A stretch of DNA of 64,000 nt, taken from contig NC_134506.1 in the NCBI RefSeq assembly GCF_027942865.1, positions 15,646,436-15,710,435 on the forward strand, given 5' to 3'. Position numbers and translations under genes: made by a program. Positions 2,058 to 36,500 of the stretch are shown here, in pieces. This DNA comes from Odontesthes bonariensis. Its lineage: Eukaryota > Chordata > Actinopteri > Atheriniformes > Atherinopsidae. The notes below the pieces were generated by a model. That model searched no databases. It saw only the letters and a program-made list of their open reading frames with translations, and was not told the DNA's origin. The number at the start of each line of letters is the position of its first letter. Positions within the stretch are counted from its first letter, which is position 1.

Positions 2058-2063
2058 TTTATT
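2058..2063 (-). other. il1fma: Polyadenylation signal for the minus-strand IL-1 family gene
   Basis: TTTATT on + reads AATAAA on -, about 112 nt downstream of the stop at 2175-2177. Placement suits a short 3' UTR. Confidence 0.5.
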
Positions 2064-2174: not shown

Positions 2175-5100
2175 TCACTTCTGAATGACGAAGAGGAACG
2201 ATGGGTCTTCTCGACCTCCATCCAGCTTTTCCATTTCCACTAAGTCTGGGTTGACTATACAAATGAACCATCCGGAATGGAGCGCCGATTCAAACCTCCG
2301 CTGTTTTGTCCGGTCAGCCTTCATGTAGAAGACATAAGCGAGGGTGTTGTCATCATTCTTGGAGATCTGCTTCAGCCTCTGCTTTTCGCATGTCTACAAA
2401 AATCAAAATCCATTGAGTCATCTTGTTTAACTCTCATTAGAAATAATTAAAAAAGAAAGGTGTTTTAATGTAAACTCAACTAAATAACATGTGATGTACT
2501 TTTATATTTGAAGCGAGGAGGTGTCATGTTGCATTACACTTCGAGGTGTTTCAGGTATCTCACATGCCTTTCATGACAGCTCCTGGTAACTTTTAAACTG
2601 TCAGCGGGGTGGCTTTTAACATCAGAGGTTAGAGTTAATGAAGAATAAGTACTGCAAGAATTTCACCAAGTTCAGTTTAACCCTACATAGACGGGACAGT
2701 GACATTTAGAAATACCGATGCCTTGATGTTAGCAAAGCAGATGCAGAGCAGGAAGAAGTATCTCATCCGTGACCTTGTTTAAATTTCAGTAATTGTTGGC
2801 TGTAAGAACTCTTATTGGCAGATGCTTTGTGTCAGTTTTTATTTTCATTACTCTCTTCAAAATGTCTTGGGATGTGAAATTTAGCTGTTTTGCATTGAAA
2901 CAACTTTTTCACTTTTGCCTCAGAAAATTAGTTGTTTCTGTACTGCTACTTGTATCAGACTTTTTTTTTTTTTTTTACAAAAGTATTGTAGCTTCTACTT
3001 GAATAAAGATTGTGTGTACTTTTGTTGACAAGTGTCAATCATATGAGTTGACACTCAAGTTAACAGTCATTAGAATGCTGTGTTTCCTCTCCCTGAGTAA
3101 CCACAGCTGAGTTATATCTATATATTCAGGAAAGGAACTAAAAGGAAAAATACATTACTCCATTGTCATACCTCCACCTGTAAGAACACCTTATCTCCTT
3201 CCTTGCAGCACCTGAGAAAGCAGTTGGAGTCAGTAAGGTTTAGCACCACTGGCATTCCTTTGAAAGACATGTCCATCCTATTTGACTTGTAGTAGTAGAT
3301 GGTGATTCTCTCTGAACACAAAGGAAATAGAATGTCATGTTAACACTTTTTCTCCTGTAGGCAAATCCCATTTTCTCATGTGATACTGAGCTGTGAATTA
3401 GTCATGTTGATGTGTACTGCGCTAAATGACTAACCTGGATTTGGTGAAGAATACGGAGTCTTCTGTGAGCAGATACCTCTTAGGTAGTGGTGAGACGGTA
3501 CATGTTCAATTAAGACTTTCGAGAGCTTTTCCTGTCTGAAAATGATACTTCCTCTTGGAACTGAAAGCCACACAGAGAACAAACAGAGGCCATGCAGTTT
3601 GTAACCCAGCAATCTTTACCCTATTTTAAGAATGTGAGAAGTCTAAAGCAACAACAGCACAGCCTGTATGAATATAAAAATATTTCAATAAAACAAGGAT
3701 AACACCAAAATACAATCCCTCAGATATGTGGACTAAACTACAAGTTGGCAAAGACTCGCTTCACTCCATCAGTAAGAAAACAGTGTTTGTAAAGATAAAG
3801 TAATAAAAGATGTTGATACTTCTTATATTTCTTCCTCAGATATTGCATGATCGTCTGCCCTGATAAAGGCAAACTAACAACAGAAATTACAATAATACAG
3901 GTGAGTCACACATTGTCCTGTTCTTTCTCTGGAAAAGTTTAAGATTTAGTTTTTTCTAAAGTAGACTAAATAACTATCCATCCATGCGTCCATTTTCTGT
4001 ACCCGCTTAATCCAATTCTGGGTGACAAGGAGGCTGGAGCCTATCCCAGCTGATGCCGTGTGAGAGGCAGGTACACCCTGGATGGGTTAGTCCGTCACAG
4101 GGATACACAGAGACAAATGAGACAAACAACCATGCACACTCACGCTCACACCTGGGGTCAATATAGAATCACCAGTCAACCTAATATGTATTTTTTTTTA
4201 AAAATTGGGAGGAAGCCGGAGCACCAGAGAGAACCCATGTATGCTTGGGGAAAACATACTCACCACAGAGGGGCCCCGGCAAAGATTCGAACAAGAAACA
4301 CTTTGCTATGAGGCGACAGTGCTAACCACCACACCACCAAGCAGCCCCGCCAAATAACATTAGAAACAAATAATGTGGAACAATATAAAGATTAACTGCT
4401 GTTATTAGTTGCATATGAGAAAAATGAAAATGAGTGAAGGCAGGAGACTTAAAGCCAACTCACTCACCAACTGTCACTGTGCTGGATTCTGCCACCACAA
4501 TGACGTCGTTGAGGGTACATCCTGTGCTATGACATCCCTGGCATGGGCTTCCGGTATCGCAGCCCCTGCCACTCACCACAGAGATGCTGGTTTTCATCAT
4601 CTGAATAACAAGCAGGTCTCCCCCCTCTCCATTCTCCTCATTTTTATCTTGGCAAACATCCTCCTCTAGATCTGATGTGGCCTCTTCCGCTCCCTCTGGC
4701 CCAACTATACTTTCTTCCTCCCTCATCATCACCCAGGAAAAACTCAGAACTGTTGACTCCTTGGAGACGGGTTGTAAAGTGTCCTCTTCTGCGGGAGACT
4801 GCTCAGCTTCTCCCCTCTTCTTGACCGCCTTGTGCACTGTCTAAAAAAAAGAAATGGGAAGTCCCAGTTTTTGAATTTTTTTGGAAAGAATCAACAGAAA
4901 GCTTAACAATGATATATATAAAAAAAAAACAGACAAAGAACCACGACCCGCCCTAATATGCCAAAATACAAAATCACAACAATACAGCCTTAAATTAATA
5001 CAAAACTATAACTTTAATGCATTCCACATGTTTGGAACCTCTTTCTCACGGTCCTTGGGTCACTTCCCTCTTTCAAAAGACAGAAACACTAAACAATGAT

Positions 5101-7279
5101 GTTACGCAGATCTCACAAGTGGAGCTGCTAGCCATTCAACTGAAACAGAATAAAGAAAATAAAGTCTAAAATAAAATGTCTGCCTTGGAGATGTCCAGTG
5201 TTTGAGACTGTGGCATCACACAAGCTCACCAGCATTGGATTCCCCTTAGAAAGCATTTGGGCCAACTCCTCAGGTGTGAGATCCTGCAGGTCAACACCAT
5301 TTATCTCCATCAGCTTGTCTCCTCTTCTGGGAAAAAAATAAAACAGACATCTTATTTATCAGACCCCTGTGATATGATATGACTACTTATGTTACAAAAC
5401 ATTCACTAAATATATCTAAAAAGCTGGATAAAATTCTAAATTCAGTTGTTCAAAGGCAGTCTAAAATTATAGTAAAATGTGAGTCAACATGAGTCATAAA
5501 AGAGAAAAAAAAAATCAATACATGGAAATCTTAATGTTTACTAAAATCCTTTATTGAAATCTAACATGATATATTATATAGGTGTTTGTATTATGTGCAT
5601 ACATCAATTATAGGGTGTCAGTCCCTAACCCAAGCCTCCTACTATTCAAATTTTTAAGAATCATATAGAAATTATCTTTTTACACAGTTGACATGGCAAT
5701 GCAAGGCCGTTTTTTCTCTTTTTTTCAACCCATAGGCCAAAATTGATATTCCAGATATTACATATAGCCTAATTCCCAGAATAAACATGTATTTCCATGT
5801 AAATAAGATTGGTTACTAATATGGATTGTTATCAACAAAACAGGCAATATATGAAAAAATTATAACAAAAGATAATCAATTAATTAGATTAATCAATCGC
5901 TTGGCGCTATTTTTCTCTACCTTCGTATCACTTTGGGCTGTATAAACCGTGCAGACCGAAGTGCAGACCGAGCAGTGAGCATGTCTTCTCATCTATATCA
6001 TGTTCTGTTAAATAATTAAGCCTATTTAAACTAACACAGACTTCTACTCAGCCAACAGAAAGAAGGCAGATGCCCGTAAAACGGGTGGTGGCCCAGCACC
6101 GCCACCTCTAATGGAGGCAAAGGAGCTGGCCCTAAGAAAGAATATTAGAAGGCCAGTGGCTGAGGGAATCCCTGGAGGGAGTCCACCCCCAAGACACAAG
6201 TGCCTTTATAAAGTGTAATAGGCCTATAGATATATTTTTTAAGCCTATTCATACAAATATTTATTTGTCTTTTATGTTTTCTTCTCTTTTGCCCCAACAG
6301 ATTCTGATGGTGCCGCTCAAAAAGATAATTTTCTGGAAATGCTAAAACATCAATGCGCAGTCTGATAACCATCTCCCGATGAATATTTAATTCTGTGCGC
6401 AGTAATGCTGCACCTTCATCCACGGGATCGTTGTCAAAAAGACATGCCATGTTCGTGAGAAAAGTCTCCTACTGTGCCTACAGTTACCCCTCTTTCTCTG
6501 ATTTGAGTTACCTCCCTTTGTGAAACGGAAAACTCAGAGTTTCCCTCATGTCAGGGTTACGAAACTCAGAGTTTTCACTAAACCTGCTTTGTGAAATGGA
6601 CCTCTGCTCTTCCCCACATCATATACCATTATCCAATCCAATTTTATTTATAAAGCACTTTACAACAACCTCAGTTGACCAAAGTGCTGTACAGAAAAAT
6701 AAAAACAAAAAATTAAAAGAATAAAATACAAGAATAAATTAAAAGACATAAAACAGCTATATAATTTAAAACAATAATATTACTAAAATAAATTTAAAAA
6801 AATAATTATACATTCAACATCTCACATCGTGTCGAAAGCCAAGGAGAAGAGAATTGTTTTAAGATATGATTTAAAAACAGACAGAGAGGAAGCCTGTCTG
6901 ACGTGGAGAGGCAGATCGTTCCACAGATTAGGAGCAGCCACAGCAAAGACACGGTCACCTCTGAGCTTGCGCTTTGTTTTCGGTTTTCATTACAATAACC
7001 CTAACCATGTGGAGAGTGTTATAGAGTGCTATACCTGAAAAACTTTTTTTTTTCACTTCCCTTACTGTACTTCACCACATTTTCCACATCGTAGTGATGC
7101 TTCCCCTCATGGATCTGGTGTACAATCAGCACGGCTCCATTAACAACACCATCCTGAAATGCAGGAATAAATAAACAAACCTGAACTCTTCCAAACAAAG
7201 GACGTCAACAAATATACACACTCAAATTATCTCATAAACAGTGGTGAAAACCGTTGAGGACACCCACCTTCAGGTCCAT
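2175..7279 (-). CDS. il1fma: Interleukin-1 family cytokine with PDZ-like N-terminal region
   Basis: Seven coding exons (transcription order): 7279-7268, 7153-7035, 5326-5230, 4840-4468, 3560-3435, 3311-3172, 2393-2175. All junctions are GT-AG and in phase, giving 361 residues. The first coding exon encodes only MDLK. Residues 5 to about 80 read like a PDZ domain: an early hydrophobic strand (GAVLIVHQIH), then RRGDKLMEINGVDLQ, LTPEELAQML and a final strand PMLTVHK. Residues 81-200 are acidic and probably disordered, with a cysteine cluster (GCDTGSPCQGCHSTGC). Residues about 200-361 form the IL-1 beta-trefoil, with RRFESALHSGWFICIV matching the family signature region, and the protein ends FLFVIQK. 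No signal peptide is visible, as in classical IL-1 cytokines. IL-1 family members act as secreted receptor ligands; receptor and direction (agonist or antagonist) cannot be read here. The symbol is my best match to the teleost IL-1 family member A; IL-1 family membership itself is much firmer. Confidence 0.8.
3970..4350. repeat. Interspersed retroelement copy in an IL-1 gene intron
   Basis: The fullest copy of the family in this window. It starts 'catccatccatgcgtccatt', passes 'tcccagctgatgccgtgtga' and ends 'gctaaccaccacaccacc'. It lies in the intron between the exons ending 3560 and starting 4468 and does not touch a splice site. Confidence 0.65.
5890..6610 (+). mobile_element. PIF/Harbinger-type transposon remnant (Myb/SANT-like protein fragment)
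   Basis: On +, 6060-6180 encodes a fragment like the DNA-binding companion protein of fish Harbinger elements (KTGGGPAPPPL, then RPVAEGIPGG), then frames break. The right end, 6490-6605, carries subterminal 'actcagagttttcac' repeats often seen beside such elements. No transposase is left and the left boundary is uncertain. The 5' part (5900-5985) shares short blocks with 40812-40960, including 'gcagaccgagcagt'. It sits in an intron of the minus-strand IL-1 gene. Confidence 0.5.
6630..6990. repeat. Interspersed repeat, probable LINE-derived 3' region
   Basis: Starts 'ccaatccaattttatttata', has an A-rich stretch, then a coding-like block 'cagatcgttccacagattag' that I associate with fish LINE 3' ends. 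No intact frame. It ends just before the IL-1 gene exon at 7035. Confidence 0.4.
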
Positions 7280-8400
7280 GTTGCTGGCTGGTGTTAGTAA
7301 TGGCAAAGTGGCAAAAAAAAATGGCAAACCGAACCCACCAGTGATCGCAGCAGCTTTTTAAAGCTTTCTGTAAGCTTGTGCTTCTGCTGAGTAGAAGGGG
7401 AAGTAGGAATGTGGAGCCACTGGCACAGCTGTAGATGGGGAACTGATGTCTAAAGAGGAAGTAAGTGAAGAACTGTAAATCTTTGATGAAAAGGGACACC
7501 GTTTTTTTAACAGAACTTGCAACATTCTATGGAAGAACAAGAGGTGAGGATTCAATGACAGAAATAATGTAGCAATTATATGGAAAGTTCCCAATCATGT
7601 GATTTTATTTTACTCTCACACACATGTGTACTGGTCTGACCTTTGCAGACAAGTAAAATAAAAAGCCAAATCTTTAGCTTCTATTTCTTGATTTTCACAT
7701 TTGGACCAACAACACAAGAACAGCATTAGAGTGTCAAAATTCAGAATGAAAATTATGCAAAGAGAAGAGGAAACAAGATTGGACTGTTGTGCATGGGAAC
7801 TAATGGGAGAAATGTACATAACTTCCTCTCTATAATACTAAAGTTCTATCATCTAGAGTAAACAATCCTTTTTACCATTGTGGTTTTTTTTTTATATATA
7901 TATAAAACGACACAGAAGTAATAATGGTTTTTCACAAGCCACGACTTTCAATGAGTAAATTTTTTTCCACATCAAAACAGGGCAATAAAGCAAGAGGGAT
8001 GGACATAACAATTTTTGATCAGAAAAAAAAGGTGCTTTGGAGGGTTGTCTTGTAAACATAGTTCTGCTTTCATTCATCTACAATTATGTATTTCCTAAAT
8101 ATTTGAAAGTGTGCATTGTGAAACTGCCAGCTATGAGAATCAAGTGGTTGTAGTGAGCTACTTCGTCTGCACATTGAGGGTCAGGAAACCATGATGAGAT
8201 AATCTGTCGGTGCTGTTTGAAAGGAGTTGAAAGTGGGAAAAACTGTTTTTAAATATACATGTGATACGTACTTAGCCCATGAATGTCAAGGTCACCGAGG
8301 TCAGACAGCTGATATGTCCGAAGTAAAAAGATTGTAGGAATCTATCCTGACATCTTGCTCGGTGGGACTTTGTGGATGTTCTGCAATACAAGTTGGGGGG
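7280..8400. other. 5' side of the minus-strand IL-1 gene, no further coding seen
   Basis: The ATG exon (7268-7279) must be preceded by 5' UTR and a promoter within this interval or just beyond. The sequence is AT-rich, with a poly-T/TA run at about 7885-7905. I see no ORF with recognisable protein character and cannot place the transcription start. Confidence 0.3.
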
Positions 8401-8520
8401 GGGGGTTATCACAACTTAAGTGGAAAATGCAGTAAAAGCGAGGCCAAGCAGGAGCTTCAGGCTGCAACAGCCACCAAAGCTTCCTGCTAGCTAGCTTGGA
8501 TTCAGCTTATCAGTTATCTG
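8401..8520 (+). other. Possible untranslated first exon of the flavoprotein gene
   Basis: A strong donor (TATCTG|GTGAGT) follows position 8520. The first coding exon at 11286 begins directly after an acceptor, so at least one upstream untranslated exon is required. Pairing the two is inference; other donors in 8.5-11.2 kb could serve. Confidence 0.25.
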
Positions 8521-8825
8521 GTGAGTGGTGTATTTCTAATATTGTAGAAAGCAACAGAAAGGAACTCTGTTACAATTCTGATGCATCAACTTGTTTACAA
8601 CCTTATCTAATTTAACTTTGTCTTCTTCAGAATCGCTCTTTAGTTCAAACATTTACTGTTAAATAACCAAAACAGTGAAAAGTGCTAAAAATGGCACAGG
8701 TTAAACACAGTCAGAGTAAACAGGGCAGGCAGTGTCATCTGCTCGTGGATGGAGATATGAGTAGGGAAATATTAGCATATTAATGAATGTGGAAAAGGGT
8801 ATTGTCATACCACAAACCAATTTAA

Positions 8826-10065
8826 AGGTGCCATGGCATGAAAATAAATGGAGGCTTTTATATATTTTTATAGGCTTTAGTGGTCCCCTAATACTGTATC
8901 TGAGTTTTTTGTATCTGAGAAAGGCGGGGCAAAGCGGAGGGTGGGGGTGTGGCCTTACTTACGCCCATGGTACCTTGCGCAAATGTTTTGTGAATCGCTA
9001 TGGCACGTAGAGGCACGGCAGCCCTATGCCGTAAAACTAGCGAAACCTGTTGAAATGAGCTTACTTTGACAATATGACGAACTAGTTAGTGAACAACTTT
9101 CCTAACACAGTCAAACATCAAGCAAGTGCTACACAAGACACAGCAAGACAACAAAAAAGGCGTGCGTGAAGGGGAAAGCAGGAGTGAGGATTTTGACATT
9201 CTCATCTGATTGCTCTGGTTTGCAAAGATGCACGTAGCGCTAGCGCTGGAACCATGAATGAATCATTATCCTGATGAAATGCACTGAATTTGCGGATTCA
9301 TTCTTCTTCGGGAAGCTTGAAGTAGGGGGTTTTGGTCTAAAATGAGCGAGCTAACCATCTCATGGGCATGCAAACACCTCCAACAGCCCATTTGGCAGAG
9401 ATAAGAGCTTGCAGATGCTATTAGCTGCATAGCTAACGATACAAACCCTTTCCTGTGGTAACAAGCTATGTAACTATACTGTACATACAGGAAAGCAACA
9501 CAATTATAGAGCGTTAAATTACTTACTTGTCCGAGGTCTGTAGTTGGGCCAAAGAGAGTTGGTACTGATCCAGGGTTAATTTTCAGACGGTCGGCAATGC
9601 CAGCTCGGTATTGGCCCAAGTTCTGGAAACATTGGTCGGTGAAATGTTTGGTGCACACATACACAAATCTCTTCGGTTCTGTCGTCACTTTCCCAGAAAA
9701 AACACAATCTGTCCACTGGCTCTTTAGAGGTTCTGATGCAGGAGCTCTAAACAGATGTTTTACATCCATATACAGCGCAATGAGCTGGCCAAAGAGCTGT
9801 GGGCGGGGAAGGGCAGTTTTGGCATAGCCATATATGGGCTCTGGGTGGAAACAACCTTCACGTCATAAGCGGGCACACGTCATAAGCGGCGGCTTTCCCG
9901 ACCAGGCCATCTGCATGGTCACATTTCCAAAGGCGGAGAATAATTTCCAGTGCATGGTTTAGGTCTATCGTCATTTTTAGCCACTGGGGGACCGCAGGCA
10001 GGCTAGAGGAACTCATAATAATGTTAAACAACCTTAAAAAGTGAAAATTTCATGCCATGGCTCCT
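8826..10065. mobile_element. Kolobok-like DNA transposon, 1240 bp, TTAA target sites
   Basis: Left end AGGTGCCATGGCATGAAAAT and right end, reverse complemented, AGGAGCCATGGCATGAAAT are terminal inverted repeats. Both are flanked by TTAA (8822-8825 and 10066-10069). TTAA duplication plus an internal THAP-domain fragment on the minus strand points to the Kolobok superfamily, whose transposases carry THAP domains; piggyBac also uses TTAA but has no THAP domain. The element is too short to encode a full transposase. Confidence 0.7.
9266..9769 (-). pseudogene. THAP-domain transposase fragment inside the Kolobok-like element
   Basis: A 167-codon minus-strand frame. Its first 80 or so residues look like the second half of a THAP zinc finger: VCTKHFTDQCF supplies the C-x2-H pair and VPTLFGP is the conserved AVPxxF-type box. 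The N-terminal cysteine pair of the C2CH finger is absent from the frame, and the remaining residues have no recognised domain. It is a decayed piece of a transposase and not a host gene. Confidence 0.55.
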
Positions 10066-10873
10066 TTAAGGTCACATAAGGTTATTTAAAGGCAGAAACT
10101 TTGAATTTTTTTAGGGGATTGATAACTTTTGGAGTTGACTTTGAATGAGATGATAAGAGACTTTTATTCTTTTTGTGAACAGAAAACAGGAATAAGTAAG
10201 ATGTTCATGTTAGTGCATGAGACTGCAAACATTTACACCTGTGTTATGGCTTTGATGTGTTGATACTGGGATGAGTGTGTTACTAAATTTATACAAGTAC
10301 ACACACATGCATGAATGCATGCATGCACACACACTGAAGCTATTTCCAGCTTTCCCTTTGGAGCTTGTGAAGTCCAACTAAATCTGTATAGGCTGGAGCA
10401 GATTGAGTTACATGAGAGTGACACGCAAAGTTTTCAAGCCCACCACCGTCTACTGCAGAATGCCAGAGCTGAGGGACCGACCACGTTTCCACCAAGCTGG
10501 CACACGCTGACAGGTCAACCAGGTACTGTGATGTACTGAACAAACAATATGATATTCTGCTGAATTGTTTGTGTATGGCAGCTGATAAAAGTTTTTATTA
10601 CAGTGGCAGCTGAATGTGCTCATGAATGCTATATTTTACTTGCTTAAATGGTCTTAATACTGGATAATCAACCGTTTTCACACAAACTTCCTGCTCAAAA
10701 AAGTGCTAATTGATATCTATTCAAGTAACACACATTGTGTTGCCTGGAATGGAAATCTTTAGTTCAGGTTTTCATGAGAACAAGTCATACAGAGTTCAAA
10801 GGACCTTTGGCTCTCAACATGTACATATTAAGTACAGTAACATAACAATTAACAGAAGTAACATAATCATCTT

Positions 10874-10957
<84 letters not shown>

Positions 10958-10985
10958 CTTTATTAATCCCGAGGGAAATTTAAGC
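10874..10985. repeat. (GATA)n microsatellite with LINE 3' tail
   Basis: About 20 perfect GATA units (10874-10956) run straight into 'actttattaatcccgaggga'. That junction is the usual 3' tail of a fish non-LTR retrotransposon, so the microsatellite probably grew from the element's tail. The same tail without the array is at 27150-27180, and its complement at 31625-31670. Confidence 0.8.
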
Positions 10986-11285
10986 ATAAAATCAAGAATC
11001 AAGCATAAAAACATCTCAGCATGAATAACAGTACAATAAAATTGTGAAATGCCTTCTGTTGAAAATTATTTTGTATACTTTGGTGTGCTGTAAACATTTC
11101 TGTGTTTTCACTGGAGATTAATTCTGGAATAAATATTGCAGTTTTACTGCAAAGCAATATGCTCTTGTTTAAGAAATTAACACTTATCAGAAGACATGCT
11201 TTGAAAGTATAATTAAGTCTTTTTCCACACTTGATTTGAGGAGTGATATAACCATGCCCTGGTCTGCCTGTGATGTGTGTTTCAG

Positions 11286-14200
11286 ATGGTCATGCTCGAC
11301 GTGTTAATAATAGGAGGCGGCCCTCATGCCCTGACCTTGGCTAGCTTGCTGTCCAGCCCTGACTCTGATCCAAATTCTGACCATGGACATGACCAACCTC
11401 TCTCCCTCTCCTGCTCAGAACCTCAGAGGTCTCAGCCAGACCCTGAAACATCCAACAACAAACGCTGCAATGGCAAGCGGAAGAGAAGGGTGAAGGGTAC
11501 AGTATGCTCACTTTAAGTTAACAAATCAAATGAATTTGATCAAATTTTTTACTTTGACTTACTGGCACGCTTGAAAAAACATTTAGGTAATTAACAAAGC
11601 TGTCAAAGCCATTATTTTTGATGGTTAATTCAGTGTTCCATGCTCATTCCACTTAATTAGTCAAACTTTCGGGTTTGGATGTTGATTCAGAAAATATGAC
11701 TTGTCAATACAAACATTGTCAAAAGGCAGGTGACTTAATAGGTCTGGATATTTATAGGTTTCTCATATTGTAACTCCTGAGGCATCATTGTGTTTCATTA
11801 TTTTTGATTTGCATCAAATAATTTTGACTTTAGAACAAACTGTCATGGTTTTAAATGCAGATTTGGCCCATATGCAGAACACACTCAGGAGGTGGAAGTA
11901 GATTTAAAATGTTTATTGAAAAACTAGGATGATGAAGAGGAATGGTCTGGGACTGGAAACTCTGGAACAGGTTTTCAAGGAGGAGTTGATGGTTCACCAC
12001 CAGGGAGCGATGAGTGAGGTCTGAGAGATGGAAGCCGGTGCTTGAATAATCCAATGCGGGAGGCTGCTTGGAAGTTAGTGTCTGAATCCAGGAAGTAGTT
12101 GGTGGCATGAGATGGTGGTTTCGACAAGGCGGCTTGGAGGGTGAGCAAGGCTTTTTAAGGAGGGCTTCTCCAGGATGCTGCCAGCGAGGAACCTCAGGGG
12201 GAGAGGAAAACTTGTAATCTGGAGGAACAGCACAAAGACATGAATAATGTTTTGACACTGGAAACAGGAGCACGAAGGTAACCTGGGAAGGAGCACAGGA
12301 AAACGTAAGGAGATCTCAGAGAGACGGCCAGAAACCAAGAGAGCACAAGACGTACCACATTGGTTAACACACTGGCGACGAAGTGCTGGCAGCAGACTCC
12401 TTTTAAAGCAATACTATGTAACATTTCTACCTTAAAATAACAGTTTGAAAAAAATTGTGCGGCTAGAATGAGTTTTAATATTACGATTGGCCTGTCTCCT
12501 ATGCCCTTCGGGGGTCTGAGTTGGAAAAACTGCGCTATGTAACTTTGCTGGACCAGCCCGGGAGCTGAGCGGAAGTACTTGACTTGCTTTCTGGCACACC
12601 TACCGCAAAAACAAATAGACCCCTCTCACGCTCCCAGGTACATTTGATTACTCTTACCTTCTCGGTCGACATAGCTTGCACCTTCTGACTCCTCGCCGGT
12701 TCGTCAACAAACGTGAAACGTGAAAGCGAAAGGGTGTTGTATTTACGACAGTGTAACCGTACATTACCTCCAAGCCTGTAGGGGGAGTTCCATAATGGGC
12801 TTTTTGAGAAGTTACATTGTATTGCTTTAAGCCTTTCCTTGATAGGTCTTGATGGGGAACACCTGTCACTCCCCAGCCACCAGAGCTCAGGCGCTACCTA
12901 CTGGACGAAAGAGGAAGCAGCAGGCAGAACAAACAGAGGGAGAAAACTCTCGAAGTGCTTTCTGTCAGAGACGATATTCACACAGGCAATTTACATTTAC
13001 ACTTCTTAGGTTGACTTGGCATGTAAAAATTGATCCATAATTTTAAATATCAGTGTTTTATTGACCAAAACGTTTTGGCAATAGTGTTGATTTTTCTGAC
13101 AGAAAGGAGTGCATTAGCATGTTAAAGGACAAGACCGTTTTTTTGACATTGGGCCCTTGATTTCACATTATAACATGATGTTCTACTCACCCCTGCTTGT
13201 TGTTGGTAATTTGGAGCTGTTCCGAAGATATTCGAGAGGCGTCTGGCTGTTCTCTTGAGATATTTGGCCATGAAACGGTTTCCTATGGGCAACGTTATAC
13301 AGGCACAAACTATGCTGTTTATAATTTATTAATTACTGTACACTAGCACTGATAACGTGGAGGTGCGTCGCTTACTTAAAAAAATCCGGGTTACTGTAAT
13401 TTTGAATTTTAGTCGAATGAATAAATAGGCAGCAGGTCTGTGGGCTGTCTGTGGTAGTAGCACGACGATGACGTCAGTAACACCCACTTTACGACAAAAA
13501 TTCAAAATTACAGTAACCCAGATTTTTTAAAGTAAGCGACGCACCTCCACGTTATCAGTGCTAGTGTACAGTAATTAATAAATTATAAACAGCATAGTTT
13601 GTGCCTGTATAACTTTGCCCATAGGAAACCGTTTCATGGCCGAATATCTCAAGAGAGCAGCCAGACGCCTCTCGAATATCTTCGGAACAGCTCCAAATGT
13701 TCAACAACAAGCAGGGGTGAGTAGAACATCATGTTATAATGTGAAATCAAGGGCCCAATGTCAAAAAACGGTCTTGTCCTTTAAGCGTGGATTCATTTTG
13801 AGTTCTTTTCATGCAATCACACAGAAAAGGTTTGCAAGTAGGAAACTAATCTGAGAGCAGAAATACACTTAAATATGTATATGTATGTATTACAAGTAAA
13901 GTAGTGTCAAATTGTGCTTAAAATCAATCCAACAGTTTTGCTTGTTATATATATTTTTTATTTCAAACCCCTCTTTGATTACATAATAAAAACATAGGCT
14001 ACATTCTTTTGCCATTCAGTTTCACTATTTACTCGTATTTGATCCACTGAACAAATCTGGGATGTCTGTGCTGATTCTGAGGTCTGAGGGCAAGTGTGTT
14101 TTTAAAATAGAGTGCACTCTAAAATCAGTAAGGTTGTCTGTGTCACTTCCTAATATTAATTTTAGCCTGCATGGGACACATCCTTATCAATCAAACTTTA

Positions 14201-17200
14201 CTCTAAATGTGTTTCTGATTGGTCTCTGCAGGCCAGACGCTGGAGGAGCAGCTAGCAAAGTTCAAAATACCAGAGAGGACCGTTTGCCCTCCTCTCAGTC
14301 TCCAAGCCGTAGATACTTATGGAGAGTGGACTGCTTTGTGGGAGAGCCAGTTTACAGCTTTGAACATCCCTCACCTGCGCTCGCACACCCTGGTGCACAC
14401 AGACCCTCTGAATAAGGTATAAACACAAAAAAAACTACTTGAACTAGAAATGAGAAAAGGCTCTTTCTGTATCAATGTAAATGAGCAGTTGTGTGAATAT
14501 CATCTCTGACAGAAAGCACTTCAGGAGTTTGTTCTGAAGTATGAGCGTTCAGACGAGCTTCACAGTCTTCCAGACCAGGTCTACATTCTGGATGAAAATG
14601 CATTCTTCAATGACATGCGGCTCGGCAAAAAGGAAAAGAAGCGCCTGAACATCACCTCCACTCTGAAGAACAGTTTGTCTTTCAGTCTACCGGGAACCCA
14701 ACTAAGTGTGGATTTCTTTCAAGAGCAGGTGAGTAAAATGTTTCTCTTCTGACTGACTGATTTGAAAGTATTCTGTTTAAATAAGTTGTGATGAGACTTT
14801 AATTATACTTTAACTTTAATTTCTCCCCTTCCTACACCACCTTCTTGATATAAAACTGTGATACCCTAACGCATTTGTTCCAGTTTGAGTGTTAATCAAT
14901 GCTTGTTTGCTCTGACAACTCCATAGAACAGTTAAAAAACGTAAAAACGTGAGTCTTAAACAATGTGCTTTATTGACTTCAAGCCGTTACCTCCAAAATC
15001 ATAATGACACACACACAAAAGAATTATTGGAATCATCATGGTGATAAGTGTATTTTGAACTTTTTGGTAATACTGTAGGGTGCATCAAGGGTCTGTGTTG
15101 AAATTTCTTATCTCTGGTCTACATCTACCATATATCGTAAACATGACGTGCGGAATGCAAGAGAATTGGACTGATAACTAGAATTTCAGAAAAGGTCATA
15201 TTTAATGAAGCACAACAACAAAACCAAAAACATAAAGAACAGAAAACATGGCGACAAAACAGGCAACGTTTTGGTATTTCACAGAATCTCACAAACATTC
15301 ATCAAAAAAATAACAAAATTCCTCCACAAGACCAAAAGTCTCTCTTACAAAAACTCACTTATCCATTATATCCATATCCACATTTCAAACAGGACAACGA
15401 AGAATTGACAAGTACGACCATTTTGTTAGGTTTCCTGAAATGTTTTTGTGTTTTTAAGAATGTTGTTTTGTGTTTTGTTAAATGCTGTTTTTTGAGGCAT
15501 GTTGTTGTGTTTTCTATCAGATTTTTGTCTTAGTTCGAATTAATTTTCTAAGACACTGTATCCTTTGAAATGTTGCATTTTGCATTTGGTACCTCATCTG
15601 AGTGGCAAGCTAACAGATTTGTTGTTGTAAAACAAGATTTTCTGAATTGTTTGAGTTTTTTCAATCTACTCATGCAGGTGAGGAGATACAAGCTGGATGG
15701 AATGCTAGTGAAGGGAACAGTGGAGCACATCATACCTGTGATGGAGGACAAGAAAGAGATGGTAGAAGAACAAAGAGGACAAGGAGAGGTCAAAAGGATT
15801 GAAGATGGAGCAAGGGAGCGAGTGAAATATTTTCAAGTCCAACTACGAGAAGGCGACATTCTAAAAGCTCGCCAGGTCGTCATAGCAACAGGTCCGACCC
15901 GAGCACAGATGGCAAACATTCCTTCTTGGGTGAAAAGTATTGGCGAGAGCTACCCAGAGGAGCGTCTGCAACACACAGTTAATCTCATGCACCAGTTGCC
16001 AAACTCTAAGCAAAAACTCAGAGATACAGACTGTCAGAAACAGGAAGAGACATTTACTACTCGTGGTGAGTAAAATTTCACCTAAAAATGGTGCAATATC
16101 TTGAAAAACTTTGCAGGGGAACAATGTTTTTTTTTTTTTATCAAAGAAGAGAAGATGACTGAAACATCTAAAAGTCTAACATTCACCAGAGTATTTCATG
16201 CCTTGCTTTGACCTGAAACGTCTGTTAATCTTCAGACTTTCGTGACCTTTTTACACCCGTCCTCAGCCCACGTCTTTCTTTACAAGTGCTATATGCTTAT
16301 GTGTGTCTAGGCCTGTATGTAGTGTGTGAGGCAGGGCAGAGAGTAATGGTAGTTGGTGGAGGTCTGACCAGCGCTCATGTCGTCTCAATTGCCCTGCAGC
16401 AAGGGGCCAGCCATGTGACGTGGGTCATGAGAAAACACCTGCAGGTCTAGTAACTGTGTGCATCGGCATGTAGATCAGCAATTTAAAAACACTGTCTCTA
16501 CACTTGTTTGTCCCCACACATTTCAGCATTTACTGTTTCCTCCGCAGCTGAAGCAGTTCGATGTGGGTGATGTGGAGAGCTTGGTGGGTCGATACTCCCA
16601 CGTCGAGCACGGCATTAAGATGGATGGCCAAGCCTACCTACGGCAGTTCTATAATGAAAGGAGTCTCCACAAACGGATGGCTATGATTCGCCAAGCGAGG
16701 AAAGGAGGAGCCGTCACCCCGGAAGCCTACATTCACCTGCAGCCTTCCATACTGAATGGACAGGTGGAGGTGAAGACATACTGTGAGGTAATAGAACACC
16801 TGCATGGTGAACAGAGGGTTGAGATAAGTGACAAGTGAACTGAGATGATGGTTTTGAGAAATAGATGAGACAGGGTGAGAAGTTGTATAGAAGAGTCCCT
16901 CAGTCTTTCTTTTTTTTTTTTTTTCACAAGCCAGAAGTGAGCAGGGTAGGACCAGCAGGTGGAGATATACCCAACAAAGTTTATGCAGTTTATGTTTTGA
17001 ATGAGAGTGTATGGGAGCCAGAGATTTTGGAGAGCCATTCACAAACTGAACATCCCCCATAGATCAATCAAGGGACTTTCACTTGTTGTGGTGAATGCTG
17101 TCCTCTGCTTCCAAACTCATTTGTGTCTTTGTGTTGTAATTTGAGCTGTGGTTTGATTTGTGCTGTGCTCCCACAGTTAAGCATTCAACTGCCACCACGT

Positions 17201-19432
17201 TGGCCTTTCTAGAGCCAAAAGTGACCATATTTGGAAGAGAGAGTGGCGCTAGAGAGTGATCCTTGACAGTTGATTGAACAAATGTGTGTTTTTTGAGGAC
17301 TTATATCTATTAGATTAGCTAATTATTTTCTGAAGGACTATCAGCACACAAATCAGATGGAGTGAATCTAGCTAATGGTCTCATTAGATCTACTGATTTA
17401 GGATTCCATGAAATTTCTGTTTTTGAATGAGACTTTATTGGAGTCAGAGATTTTTTGTGACTTGAACCTATCTGCTGTCAGTGGTTTTTAATTTCCAAAT
17501 CAGCTTCACATCTGACAGTGGATGGTTTAATCAGTCAATTATACGACTTACGAAAAAAAGCCAAACTCTGGTGGCGGTGGGTGATATTGCATTCTACTTT
17601 GAGTTCACATTTTAGAACTGAAGGCTTTATCTATCTTTTATACAGTGCATGGTATAAAAGGACATACAATACTTGTACGTTAGATACAATTCTCCTTTTT
17701 CTTTATGGCTTCTTACCTTCACTTGCAAACAATTGAAAGAAAAATGTCATACATTTTAGCTGACAATATTCATTTGACTCAAATTAGACTTGGTTTAGTT
17801 TCTGTAACACATTAAATGTTTGCATCAAATATAGATGAACTCCATCTAAAAATATGATTTGTTGCTGTAAGTTATTTTTCCAACAATTAGTATACATAAG
17901 TACACCGACAGTTAGAAAGCTGCCTTTCTGCTTCATACAAAAGCTGATTAATGCAAAGTGAAAATAATAACTATCTGCACTTCTATGCAAAACTAGTGCA
18001 GTCAGCTCTATCTCAAACGATGTGAATAATAAAAGTATCTAAGGATATACTTTCCTAATTAAACACACCACCAACCAAACATCTCCCTGATAGTGTTGTC
18101 TATAGGTCCCCTGATTTCTGCCAAAACAGCCCCTCAAGGCAAATTATCCCACTGAAAGAAGCGGCTCCATCAACATGAAGGCAAAAACCCAAGGTTTCCC
18201 AGCAGAACAAGGAGATCAGTGTTATTTACTTAAGTTAAAATACAACCAGAGTTAGAGTATATAGGGTGAGATCAGTTGACATGGGGATGGTTTAGATCCT
18301 TTCCCAGCCTAACACATTGTTCTCATGTCGGAATAGGCAGCCTATTCTCCTATTTGTATAAGTCCCAACAGTATTCAGATTACAGCACATCCTGTCATTC
18401 GTGAGCGGCAGATTAAACACGGAAGATCTGCTTAGTATAACAGCACAAGCAAGAATACTTTGAAAAAATGGTCTGAGTTCAAGGACTGCTCTTCCTTTTG
18501 CTGAGAAAAGTCAACCAGGCAGCTCAGTGGGACCACAAAGATCACACCTTAGATGTTAAATATCTCACAAGACTCCTCCTGCAAGTCTGAGCATGTCAGA
18601 TTCAAATTAATTTGTGATTAAAAATTCAGTCATGTCTGAATGCCTGATACCAAGTCGTCGCTTTATAATACAGTGTATTGTACATATAATGTATGTGCAG
18701 AGTTAACTTGAATCTCATGAACAACCAGGTGAGTGAAGCCGGCTGGGACTACAGGCACCAGGCCTGGAGTCTGTCTCTCAGCTCTGGGGACCACTGGACA
18801 GGAGATATGATCTGGCTCGCCACTGGCTGCAAACTTGATGTCAAACAAGACCCACTGCTTTCTGAAGTCATAAGAGAATTCCCAATTCAGGTGGGTTTTA
18901 GCAGAAAATTGGCCTATTTAAATACAGTTTTATTGTTTGTATAGAAATGTGGAACAAAATAAATGTTAAAAATAAATTAGCAGATGGTAAGCAGAATGTG
19001 CTTTTGTACTATGCTTTTACAATATATCCTGAACCAGAAAATACTCAGATAATAAAAAGTTTCTGGCTTGTGCCCTTTGAAGGTGATAGATGGATGGCCA
19101 TGCATATCAGAAAGTTTACAATGGGCAGAAGGGTGCCCACTCTACCTGATGGGGCAGTACGCCGCTATTCAGGTATGCTCTATTCATATTTATAGTATTT
19201 CACTGTGCAAAAACTGGCCCTGGCAACCAAGAACCTTCCTTTTCCCCATCTTACCACACAGGTTGGACCTCATGCAGTAAACCTGGCTGGGGGACAGGCT
19301 GCCAGCATGCGAATCGCTAAGGACATCATGCACCGTCAGCTGCAGGACAGTGTGCAGACTGCTGACATGAGCAGGGACAAATCAAAAACTGAAGATTATA
19401 TTCAACAGATGAAAGGACTTTTATGGCTTTAA
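11286..19432 (+). CDS. FAD/NAD(P)-dependent oxidoreductase, monooxygenase-like, unnamed
   Basis: Nine coding exons: 11286-11496, 14232-14416, 14513-14728, 15678-16065, 16311-16444, 16548-16787, 18729-18890, 19083-19172, 19262-19432. All phases join and give 598 residues. The N-terminus LIIGGGPHALTLA (from residue 7) is the dinucleotide fold that binds FAD. A basic low-complexity insert follows (GKRKRRVKG). RQVVIATGP closes a first nucleotide-binding unit, VMVVGGGLTSAHV (about 345-357) is a second glycine-rich motif suited to NAD(P)H, and MIWLATGC (about 485-492) resembles the ATG-type motif of N-hydroxylating flavin monooxygenases. GPHAVNLAGG near residue 544 is the usual C-terminal FAD contact. 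No signal peptide or membrane segment is seen. The closest family I can suggest is lysine/ornithine N-monooxygenase-like; substrate unknown. It is not OSGIN, whose motif differs. Weakest point: the acceptor at 18727-18728 has a poor pyrimidine tract. Confidence 0.8.
12407..12826. mobile_element. TTAA-flanked MITE, copy 1 of a two-copy family
   Basis: Inverted ends AGCAATACTATGTAAC and, at the right, GTTACATTGTATTGCT, each next to TTAA (12403-12406 and 12827-12830); 420 bp. It is the reverse complement of 21995-22408 over essentially the whole length. Non-autonomous, with no coding frame. It lies in the first coding intron of the flavoprotein gene. Confidence 0.8.
13126..13780. mobile_element. 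TTAA-flanked foldback element, 655 bp near-perfect palindrome
   Basis: Ends AGGACAAGACCG and its complement, with TTAA at 13122-13125 and 13781-13784. The arms (13126 to about 13413 and about 13494 to 13780) are complementary over about 285 bp with few mismatches, leaving a unique centre of about 80 bp. Kolobok-like by target site. It is intronic. Confidence 0.8.
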
Positions 19433-19528
19433 CATTAGCATTTATCCTGATGAACCCAGAGGCATGTGAGCATGGTATCCATGATTATTGTGGTCAAAGG
19501 GCCCCTAGAATGGAATCATTGTGAACTT

Positions 19529-19534
19529 AATAAA
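19529..19534 (+). other. Polyadenylation signal of the flavoprotein gene
   Basis: AATAAA 97 nt after the TAA stop at 19430-19432. The next gene's first features start about 0.8 kb downstream, so the two genes are close and co-directional. Confidence 0.6.
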
Positions 19535-20079
19535 AACCTTATTTTAGTGTGCTTGGCCAAGATGCTGAATGCACAACTTCACACTGTGTTTATTGTATGT
19601 AAACAATATGATGGAAATATCCATAACTCACAGTATAGGAGTTGAACTAAAGTGGTCATCAAACCAGAAAATTGCACTAAAATTGCCATTGCCTCATCTC
19701 CCAATTACTGATAATACAGTCACCTATAACAGTGCTCAATTACACACTGGAAATCCCTATTTGTGAGCATAAAATGGCTCTGTGGTTGCTTTATTTTATT
19801 AATCATAATAAGATATCCAGAATGAAATAAACTCAGAACATTTAAGTCTCTACATAGTTATTATCTATCTCTTTACGGTCCTTATTCACAATTTTGTACT
19901 GTCTCTTTTTTGTTGTTGCTGTTTTTTTGGGCCTCGTTAAAAGTATTCAGACACATTGCGTTATCCATTCATATTTGATCGTTTATTTACCTTTAACAGA
20001 TTCAGGGTAGTAAAGGATTTTATGTTTTGTAAAGCTATCTGGACTCATTTCCTTTTTGTGGCAAGGAAAAAAAACTGAC

Positions 20080-33500: not shown

Positions 33501-36500
33501 TCAATCCATGTTGAACTCTGGGTAATTGTTTGTGTTGGTCCTGCTTGCATGAAAGGGACCCTGATAAATGACCTTCAGGATCATGTATTATAAACACACT
33601 GTAGGACTAGCCTCAACAGTCATGTCTCAGTCCATTTCTAGTCAACATGAGGATACTATGTATTCATATCCAATCCATGTAAAAAAACAAACAAACAAAC
33701 AAAAGAAAACATATTTTGAACAAGTTCCAAGATTACAGCAAACCTTTAATGAGTGATAACACCCATTGTTAATGACTTCTTGAAATAATTGCACAGGTAT
33801 AATTATAAGTATTCTAACTGGTTTATTTTAATTGAGTCAGAAAGTGGGGTAGAATATTTCCGGAAATTAAATGTATGCACAACAGCGCCTTGTTAATTAC
33901 CAGTTTTTATATCCACTCACTGTTCGTGAGCTATTGGTGATTTGTAACTTATAAACGCATGTAAAGCGCATTCACTCTGTTAAAAAAATGTTGTTTATAA
34001 CGTCCAGCATTGTGAACGAAAATACAGCATCAGTAGTCCAGTGCCACGCTTGGATTAATGTTGTTTGTCTAATTCCTAGGCAGTTCGATTTAGTTTTTCC
34101 CAGTAAGGTCATTTTTCTCTCTTCTTTGGGTTCTTATACACCAAAGTGATGTAGTTTGTAAAAGGTGTAAAAGGCCTTATACTGAGTCTACTTTGGGTCA
34201 AACAAAATAGCACTTGAACACACCGCAAAGATGACTTCCAGCCAGCATGTGTGATCTACAACTGAGGAAGAAGATATAGTCCACTAATGCAGAAAGGGGT
34301 CGACAGTACAAACGTATATATACATATCATATATATCAAGGAAGGCCACTTGGATAAAAAGAAAAAAGTCAGAATAGCAGTGTGTGCTTTGTGTTTTTTT
34401 CGGTAATGTCTAACAGAACGGGCGTCTCTTGGGTTGTGATTATCAGGTAGTCTTCAGTTTATTCACTCCATATGGCTACATGGTTGTGAAAGTGCAGGAC
34501 GGATCCTGGTGAAATTGGGGCCCTTATTCAGAATCAAACACACTGATATTTCAGAAATCTACATCCAGATTTAGTTTCCTCTGTCAACAATTTATCATTT
34601 CTGTTGAGTTTTCTGAGTTTTTTTCATTAGCATGCAAAAGTTAGCTTTGTCAGTTGGCTAATTAATTTGACTAAGAATATTTTTAACACCCTGCAGATGT
34701 AGCCTACTGTTTATTTTATTTTATTTTTTTCGATGGTCAGATGAGTCCTTTTTATTGTGTATCAACCAAAATGACATTTGAACTTCTTAAACACTGAATA
34801 CTAGAAAAAAAAACACCTTCCCCCACCCCCACCTTTCAACTATGCCTGACCCTTGTACTGCTGGTGCAGCATGAGGACGTCCTCCTGAGAGACCCTGGTC
34901 CAGCCCTCGCTGTGGACGTGGTACAGGTTGACCTGCCCTCCGCTGTAAGCGTCGCGGAAGGTCGCCTGGTAGATGGCGCGGCGGCCCAGCTCGCAGGCCT
35001 CCTCCACGGTCAGCTTGTGCTGCAGGTCGCTGTCTATCACGCCGTAGGCGTACATGGAGCCCGAGCCTACCGCAAACAGGTCGCTGCACACCCGGTTCCC
35101 CTCCGAGTCAACGTAGTACAAACCTGGGCCCCTCTTGTCCCAGCCACACACCATGGTTCCCATGCTGAGTCCCATGCCCTTATACTGGTAAACCATGTTG
35201 GCGAGCAGCTTGGAGGCGGCCGCCACGGAGATGTGTTCTTTGTTGCGAAGCTCGTAGATGCGGCACAAGACCGCTGTTTTCAAACACCAAGGTAGAAAGC
35301 GAAGAAGAAGAAAAAGAAGCATGAATCCCATAGACATAATACATATAATATATTATGTCTATGATGAATCCACTCGAAGAGAGACTTGCCGAAGAGGTCC
35401 TGCTGGTGAATTTCCTTTAATCGTAGTAGGCTTGTCATTGAAAAAACCCGCTACTCCACCTACTGTCCTGGCGGTGAATCGCCACGCAGCACACGCAAGC
35501 GCCGGCAAAGCTAAATGAAGCATAAACGTCTCGAGCCATTAACACAAGCGCAAGACGCAAGCGCAAGGGCAGTTAAAAGAAGTATAACCCAGCCTTGAGG
35601 CTTTCCCCCGGCGTAGCCTCGGATTCCAGACCATTCTGTCCGGATCCACTACCAAAAGCCAAGGGCTGGCGATAATCAAACGAATAATCTGAACATTCGC
35701 TGCTCAATAGATTAGCAAGGGCCATCTTTCAAAGTGTCCCCTACTGTTTAATTTTTAGCAACATTTAGCAACAGCAAAAAAAAAAAGAAGCATTTTATTG
35801 TGAACCATATTAAGATTCAGTCATGCAATAATATCTACTGAAAGCAACAATGGAGCAGCTGCTGCAGCTGTTTGCCAACAGGTGTTTGTTATTACCGTGG
35901 AAAAATTTCAGGGTTTTGTCAACAACTTGTTTCTGATAATTGCAAGAGGTCAAATATTTTTTATTGCAGTTTTAAGAACGGATTACTTTTTTTTTAATGG
36001 TTCCTTCTGCTTTATAACCTACAAAGATCATCTCTTTGTTTTACAGGATGGACTACCTTCATCTATACTCTATCAGGAACTATTCGTGTTGGTGAGTCTT
36101 ATCAGGTTTATGCACTCGCATCCACACCTCTCTGAGTTTACAGCAATATAGTTTACCTCCCCTATGAATACAGTTTGATTAATGTTCTCAACAGAAAGAA
36201 GAAATCAGTGTTAAGCAGGGTACTGACATTCTTTGGATTGATATATAAGCTCTCTGGCCTCTTTTCTCTCTTTTCCTTTCTGCTGTGTCTAGATTACAAG
36301 TGTGTGTGATCTCAAGCCAATTACAGCTTCCCAGCCAAAATGCACATGTGCTCTACTTCAAAATCTTGAAGGATTCATACTGTCACCCTGCTAAGATTAC
36401 GAGGATGTCAACTCAATCTAAAATGTACCCAACATTACTGGGATATAGTATATGTATGGTATTTTTCATTGTCTGACCTCATATCACCTTACTCACATGA

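Follow-up and report, generated by a model that had tools for sequence, protein, structure and literature searches.

Gene Structure and Identity

The window analyzed here is a stretch of 64,000 nucleotides of the fish Odontesthes bonariensis (contig NC_134506.1), whose minus strand carries, from position 7279 down to 2175, an IL-1 family gene in seven coding exons. The gene is very probably the orthologue of the known fish cytokine nIL-1F (il1fma), and its product joins an IL-1 trefoil to an N-terminal stretch related to PDZ domains, a feature already in print for this cytokine in lumpfish. GT donors and AG acceptors flank all six introns, and the exons join in phase into a frame of 1086 bases that encodes 361 residues and a stop (Table 1). 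A first-pass annotation of the letters had proposed this same model, and its exon positions, splice sites and phases all held; the strings that it quoted from the PDZ-like stretch, RRGDKLMEINGVDLQ, LTPEELAQML and PMLTVHK, are likewise present, within residues 44-80.

The C-terminal part is matched by the Pfam IL1 family (PF00340) over residues 243-335 (E 4.3e-11), and residues 200-361, searched against the sequences of the PDB, retrieve IL-1 beta chains at the first ranks (best E 6.1e-6). An NCBIfam search with the whole protein assigned no family. In a PF00340 search of the genome contigs (945 Mb, 187 contigs; E up to 1), five exon matches fell into three loci (C27, C7 and the window), and the two further loci are presumably IL-1 beta genes, a name that we infer. 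Fish IL-1 beta is, like the window protein, a beta-trefoil ligand of the IL-1 family. The two loci differ from the window gene in what lies upstream: within about 8.5 kb on the coding strand, scanned as three forward frames of 9.9 kb each, no PDZ match exceeded 3.8 bits, whereas the same scan gave 23.3 bits at the window locus.

Table 1. Coding exons of the nIL-1F-like gene and its likely polyadenylation signal (window coordinates).
Feature	Position	Strand	Content
Coding exon 1	7268..7279	-	MDLK; start codon context CAACATGG
Coding exon 2	7035..7153	-	Residues 5-44, 5' part of the prodomain; alone not recognizable as PDZ
Coding exon 3	5230..5326	-	Residues 44-76; source of almost the whole PDZ signal (PF00595 positions 46-71)
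Coding exon 4	4468..4840	-	Residues 77-201: last PDZ strand (TVHK) and acidic linker with Cys cluster; possible cleavage at LEED137/V and at VVPR203/GS, whose string spans the exon 4/5 junction
Coding exon 5	3435..3560	-	Residues 201-243; trefoil begins
Coding exon 6	3172..3311	-	Residues 243-289; IL-1 trefoil
Coding exon 7	2175..2393	-	Residues 290-361 and stop; IL-1 trefoil including the FESALHSGWFIC region
AATAAA, likely polyadenylation signal	2058..2063	-	About 110 bases past the stop; by eye

The Cys cluster of the linker reads CDTGSPCQGCHSTGC and occupies residues 170-184. A scan for bacterial promoters over 7280-7500 returned nothing, a bacterial-type scan being uninformative for this locus.

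A PDZ Signal Confined to the Second Half of the Domain

The N-terminal region is matched by the Pfam PDZ family (PF00595), with residues 26-76 aligned to profile positions 28-76 of 81. Residues 1-90 alone score 24.9 bits (E 2.7e-5), above the curated cut-off of 23.2 bits. The coupling of a PDZ-like stretch to an IL-1 trefoil, as the first-pass annotation had put it, is thus borne out in that both domains are matched, but in the context of the whole protein the PDZ part falls slightly below the cut-off (21.6 bits, E 3e-4). With phmmer, residues 1-90 retrieve 144 chains from the PDB sequences (E up to 10). DLG4 heads the list (E 6.2e-5), and the best 60 of the 144 are all PDZ proteins by name or known content. 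A profile was also built from own-genome PDZ domains, for which 20 of the 150 matched regions were picked by hand, most of them contained whole in a single exon; against it residues 1-90 reach 27.3 bits and the whole protein 23.6 bits. Among 2000 shuffles of residues 1-90, which destroy all order and hence test the sequence pattern and not the fold, the highest score was 10.3 bits. Because the score so far exceeds the best shuffle, the PDZ relation of the prodomain is real and beyond chance. It is nevertheless weaker than in ordinary PDZ exons: the PF00595 search of the genome lists 150 exon matches, the lowest at 30.8 bits, and the window exon is not among them.

The signal is unevenly spread. 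Exon 3 with its 32 residues scores 22.4 bits against PF00595 by itself, slightly under the cut-off, and the Pfam scan found no match of any kind in exon 2 (39 residues) or exon 4 (124 residues). To keep controls apart from profiles, 18 of the 20 PDZ regions were grouped into nine families, the first member of each serving as the control when its family was left out; L023 and L024, which both begin after the first strand, were excluded as controls. In all nine tests residues 44-80 stood far above the shuffles of the second-half profiles (z 8.4 to 9.7; score reached by 0 of 200 shuffles). Residues 1-43, in contrast, remained at shuffle level against the first-half profiles (z -0.4 to 1.0; score reached by 30 to 126 of 200 shuffles in each of the nine), whereas the left-out real first halves stood out nine times out of nine (z 2.6 to 8.0; 0-2 of 200 shuffles). 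An earlier shuffle test, in which the six positive controls belonged to the profile itself, had 384 of 500 shuffles reach the score of residues 1-28 and 168 of 500 that of residues 1-43. The wording "second half of a PDZ fold" in the first-pass annotation therefore proves literally right, with residues 1-43 unrecognizable as PDZ.

The likeness extends to the PDZ domains of DLG/MAGUK and InaD-like proteins, whose second half is of the GDKLMEINGVDL type also seen in the window protein. Unlike these, the window stretch lacks a recognizable GLGF-loop half and has a proline at the class I histidine position. Of the 20 own-genome regions, 17 have a GLGF-type motif and the other three are cut short there; none is seen in the window prodomain. 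At the class I histidine position the window protein has Pro62; histidine occupies it in 11 of the 20 regions, and proline recurs in L023 and L025. Because the GLGF-type motif is missing and the histidine is replaced, ordinary binding of C-terminal peptides by the prodomain, and with it a standard PDZ anchor, appears doubtful. Since neither the GLGF-type loop nor the first half is recognizable, we term the stretch PDZ-derived rather than a PDZ domain. As 25 residues precede the match, compared with 27 profile positions, there would still be room for a diverged first half and a full PDZ fold is possible.

The intron within the PDZ region, between exons 2 and 3, is in phase 2 and interrupts the codon two before Gly-Asp. 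Fourteen PDZ exons of the same genome, selected for a match starting at profile position 36-44, were compared by eye: codon and phase agree in two of them (L038 and L039, which by eye resemble DLG4 PDZ1), the intron looks to be one base further on in about nine, and lies elsewhere in three. An agreement of 2/14 is too weak to name a donor of the PDZ stretch from the intron position.

Does the PDZ-Like Stretch Belong to the Gene?

The PDZ-like stretch could in principle come from another gene or from a mispredicted exon and lie outside the nIL-1F transcript. This is very improbable, given that splice sites and phases agree at all six introns and that the lumpfish transcript, confirmed by Sanger sequencing, has this same pair of domains and as many coding exons (PMC7144542). 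The same precedent upholds the earlier statement that the fusion is no gene-calling artefact. Nor did the minus strand from 5327 to 20000 yield another PDZ exon: among its 325 translated stretches the best score against the own-genome profile was 2.2 bits, and an alternative upstream exon was dismissed on this ground.

One of the 325 stretches (7357-7235, minus strand), upstream of the start codon and in frame with exon 1, contains the GLGF-like string GFGL. It was rejected as a missing first half, having no ATG before MDLK, no PDZ match at E up to 50 and too great a distance; the string is probably due to chance, and 7235-7357 probably 5' untranslated or promoter sequence.

Comparison With Fish nIL-1F

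The closest known system is nIL-1F of lumpfish, published in 2020 as a protein of 352 residues with an IL-1 domain, a PDZ domain (IPR001478) and seven coding exons, whose merged transcript was the one sequenced and for which caspase-1 and thrombin sites were predicted (PMC7144542). The first-pass annotation knew of no PDZ in any IL-1 precursor; that remark accordingly falls. The paper itself mentions PDZ twice, as the name of an InterPro entry, in a section of the results and in a figure legend, and the discussion does not take it up (PMC7144542). A search of open-licence papers gave no report of a PDZ in fish nIL-1F beyond lumpfish (PMC7144542), and the term has a count of zero in the accessible parts of PMC12108812 and PMC5861070. 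The architecture of IL-1 plus PDZ is therefore not new; what is added here is that the PDZ signal is nearly confined to exon 3.

Apart from the domain pair, the exon number and the similar length, both proteins have a candidate thrombin-type site before the trefoil, where primer R358 of lumpfish reads VMLVPRGG and the window protein VTVVPRGS. Of the ten lumpfish nIL-1F primers in print, seven encode, in the best of three frames, peptides that share at least five identical residues with the window protein (at protein positions 106, 160, 198, 271, 292 and 354, the last for two primers), and none of the seven falls in the PDZ part; primers F353, F355 and R360 found no convincing match. No substantive difference between the two proteins was seen in this comparison, which was made by description and primers. 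In the lumpfish study the nIL-1F clade takes in ghost shark and coelacanth, its loss in tetrapods is the view of the authors, and synteny is called identical for the species of that study (PMC7144542).

Proposed Role of the Prodomain

We consider it probable, as one joint reading, that the gene is nIL-1F and that a fish IL-1 receptor antagonist is made from its product, a precursor whose prodomain derives from a PDZ; the role of the prodomain is far less certain. In this precursor the PDZ-derived prodomain would take up residues 1-80 and the IL-1 beta-trefoil about 204-361, joined by a linker at about 81-203. By thrombin and caspase site preferences, VVPR203/GS and LEED137/V in the linker would be candidate sites. 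Both are present as sequence strings, with cleavage only predicted. Most likely the trefoil would be cut free near VVPR203/GS, which would yield 158 residues, or at an upstream Asp, for which LEED137/V is a candidate caspase-type site. It would then most likely be secreted by an unconventional pathway, as members of the IL-1 family are, and would occupy or block IL-1R1 without signalling, as in other fish. According to one review, fish nIL-1F has no signal peptide, in trout the C-terminal 169 residues of nIL-1F inhibit genes induced by IL-1 beta, and the antagonism likely proceeds by competition for the receptor, as shown in grass carp (PMC4929537). The antagonist role, receptor binding, predicted cut sites and lack of a signal peptide would thus be carried over from print on other fish.

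The PDZ-derived part most likely acts before cleavage, when it may retain the precursor in the cytosol or tether it to a partner. It would do so outside the usual groove, by another surface, or by a groove that has strongly diverged. As no canonical groove features are seen, retention or contact by another surface is favored over classical C-terminal peptide binding. The gene structure, the domain matches and the half-PDZ signal are results of this analysis; we infer both the cleavage of the window protein and every function of the prodomain.

To our knowledge, IL-1Ra of mammals carries no PDZ. The likeness to it lies in the antagonist role reported for nIL-1F of trout and grass carp, and the review adds that these molecules are not one-to-one orthologues of the mammalian IL-1R antagonists (PMC4929537).

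Several points weigh against the antagonist-precursor reading. The first PDZ half is unrecognizable, with residues 1-43 at shuffle level, so that a folded PDZ is only putative. The antagonist role is transferred by analogy from other species, and the trout result, as the review gives it, concerns the last 169 residues only and is silent on the prodomain (PMC4929537). The candidate cut sites come from reading strings, and the gene model from the genomic sequence of this species. In addition, the PF00340 search of the genome scored the window gene's own exon at 19.8 bits, under the cut-off. A search that gives so low a score to a gene known to be there, and that lists no additional locus fit to be IL-18, leaves the number of IL-1-like loci in this genome weakly known.

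Our confidences in the readings are not mutually exclusive, in that the two alternatives that follow depart from the best explanation only on the role of the prodomain. The model of the first-pass annotation, a complete folded PDZ with a diverged first half that binds the C-terminus of a partner and anchors the precursor, is possible but on balance unlikely. The HMM check against PF00595 that it called for gave scores on both sides of the cut-off. In its favor, the 25 residues before profile position 28 would be roughly enough for strands A and B, and InterPro assigns a PDZ in lumpfish (PMC7144542). It has to contend, however, with residues 1-43, which failed in nine of nine tests where real first halves succeeded, with the missing GLGF-type motif near the start and with Pro62 in place of the class I histidine, the last tempered by proline in 2/20 own-genome domains. 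These same missing ligand-binding features, together with the concentration of nearly all PDZ signal in some 26 residues, would suit exon 3 as a relic, a PDZ fragment that has lost its fold and forms part of a disordered propeptide. We regard this as less likely still, as the second half keeps its strong z-scores against shuffles and the PDZ assignment in lumpfish suggests that the sequence was kept (PMC7144542). The half-domain result sharpens the question into one between a diverged PDZ, a half-PDZ and a relic.

Beyond the antagonist-precursor reading itself, we put forward as a speculative extension that this is an IL-1 ligand of jawed fish, probably lost in tetrapods, in which a truncated or strongly diverged PDZ governs, through a non-canonical surface, the location of the precursor and the timing of antagonist release. 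If true, it would amount to a scaffold-tethered brake on IL-1 signalling without mammalian counterpart; a PDZ-derived prodomain governing antagonist location or release would be a mode of IL-1 regulation absent from mammals.

Other Features in the Window

The reading frames at 15570-16838 on the plus strand resemble a FAD/NAD oxidoreductase by eye (ARQVVIATGPTRAQ), with no significant match in Pfam or NCBIfam. On the minus strand, 9269-9769 holds a reading frame with a THAP domain (PF05485, E 6.2e-7), perhaps transposon-derived. A gene of the ACE2/collectrin type has its C-terminal membrane segment on the plus strand at 102-281 (PF16959, E 2.5e-25); by eye the tail extends to about 460, and this gene converges on the cytokine gene from the opposite strand. 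A proteasome beta subunit exon, which we take to be PSMB5/8-like, lies on the minus strand at 34843-35337 (PF00227, E 5.5e-27).

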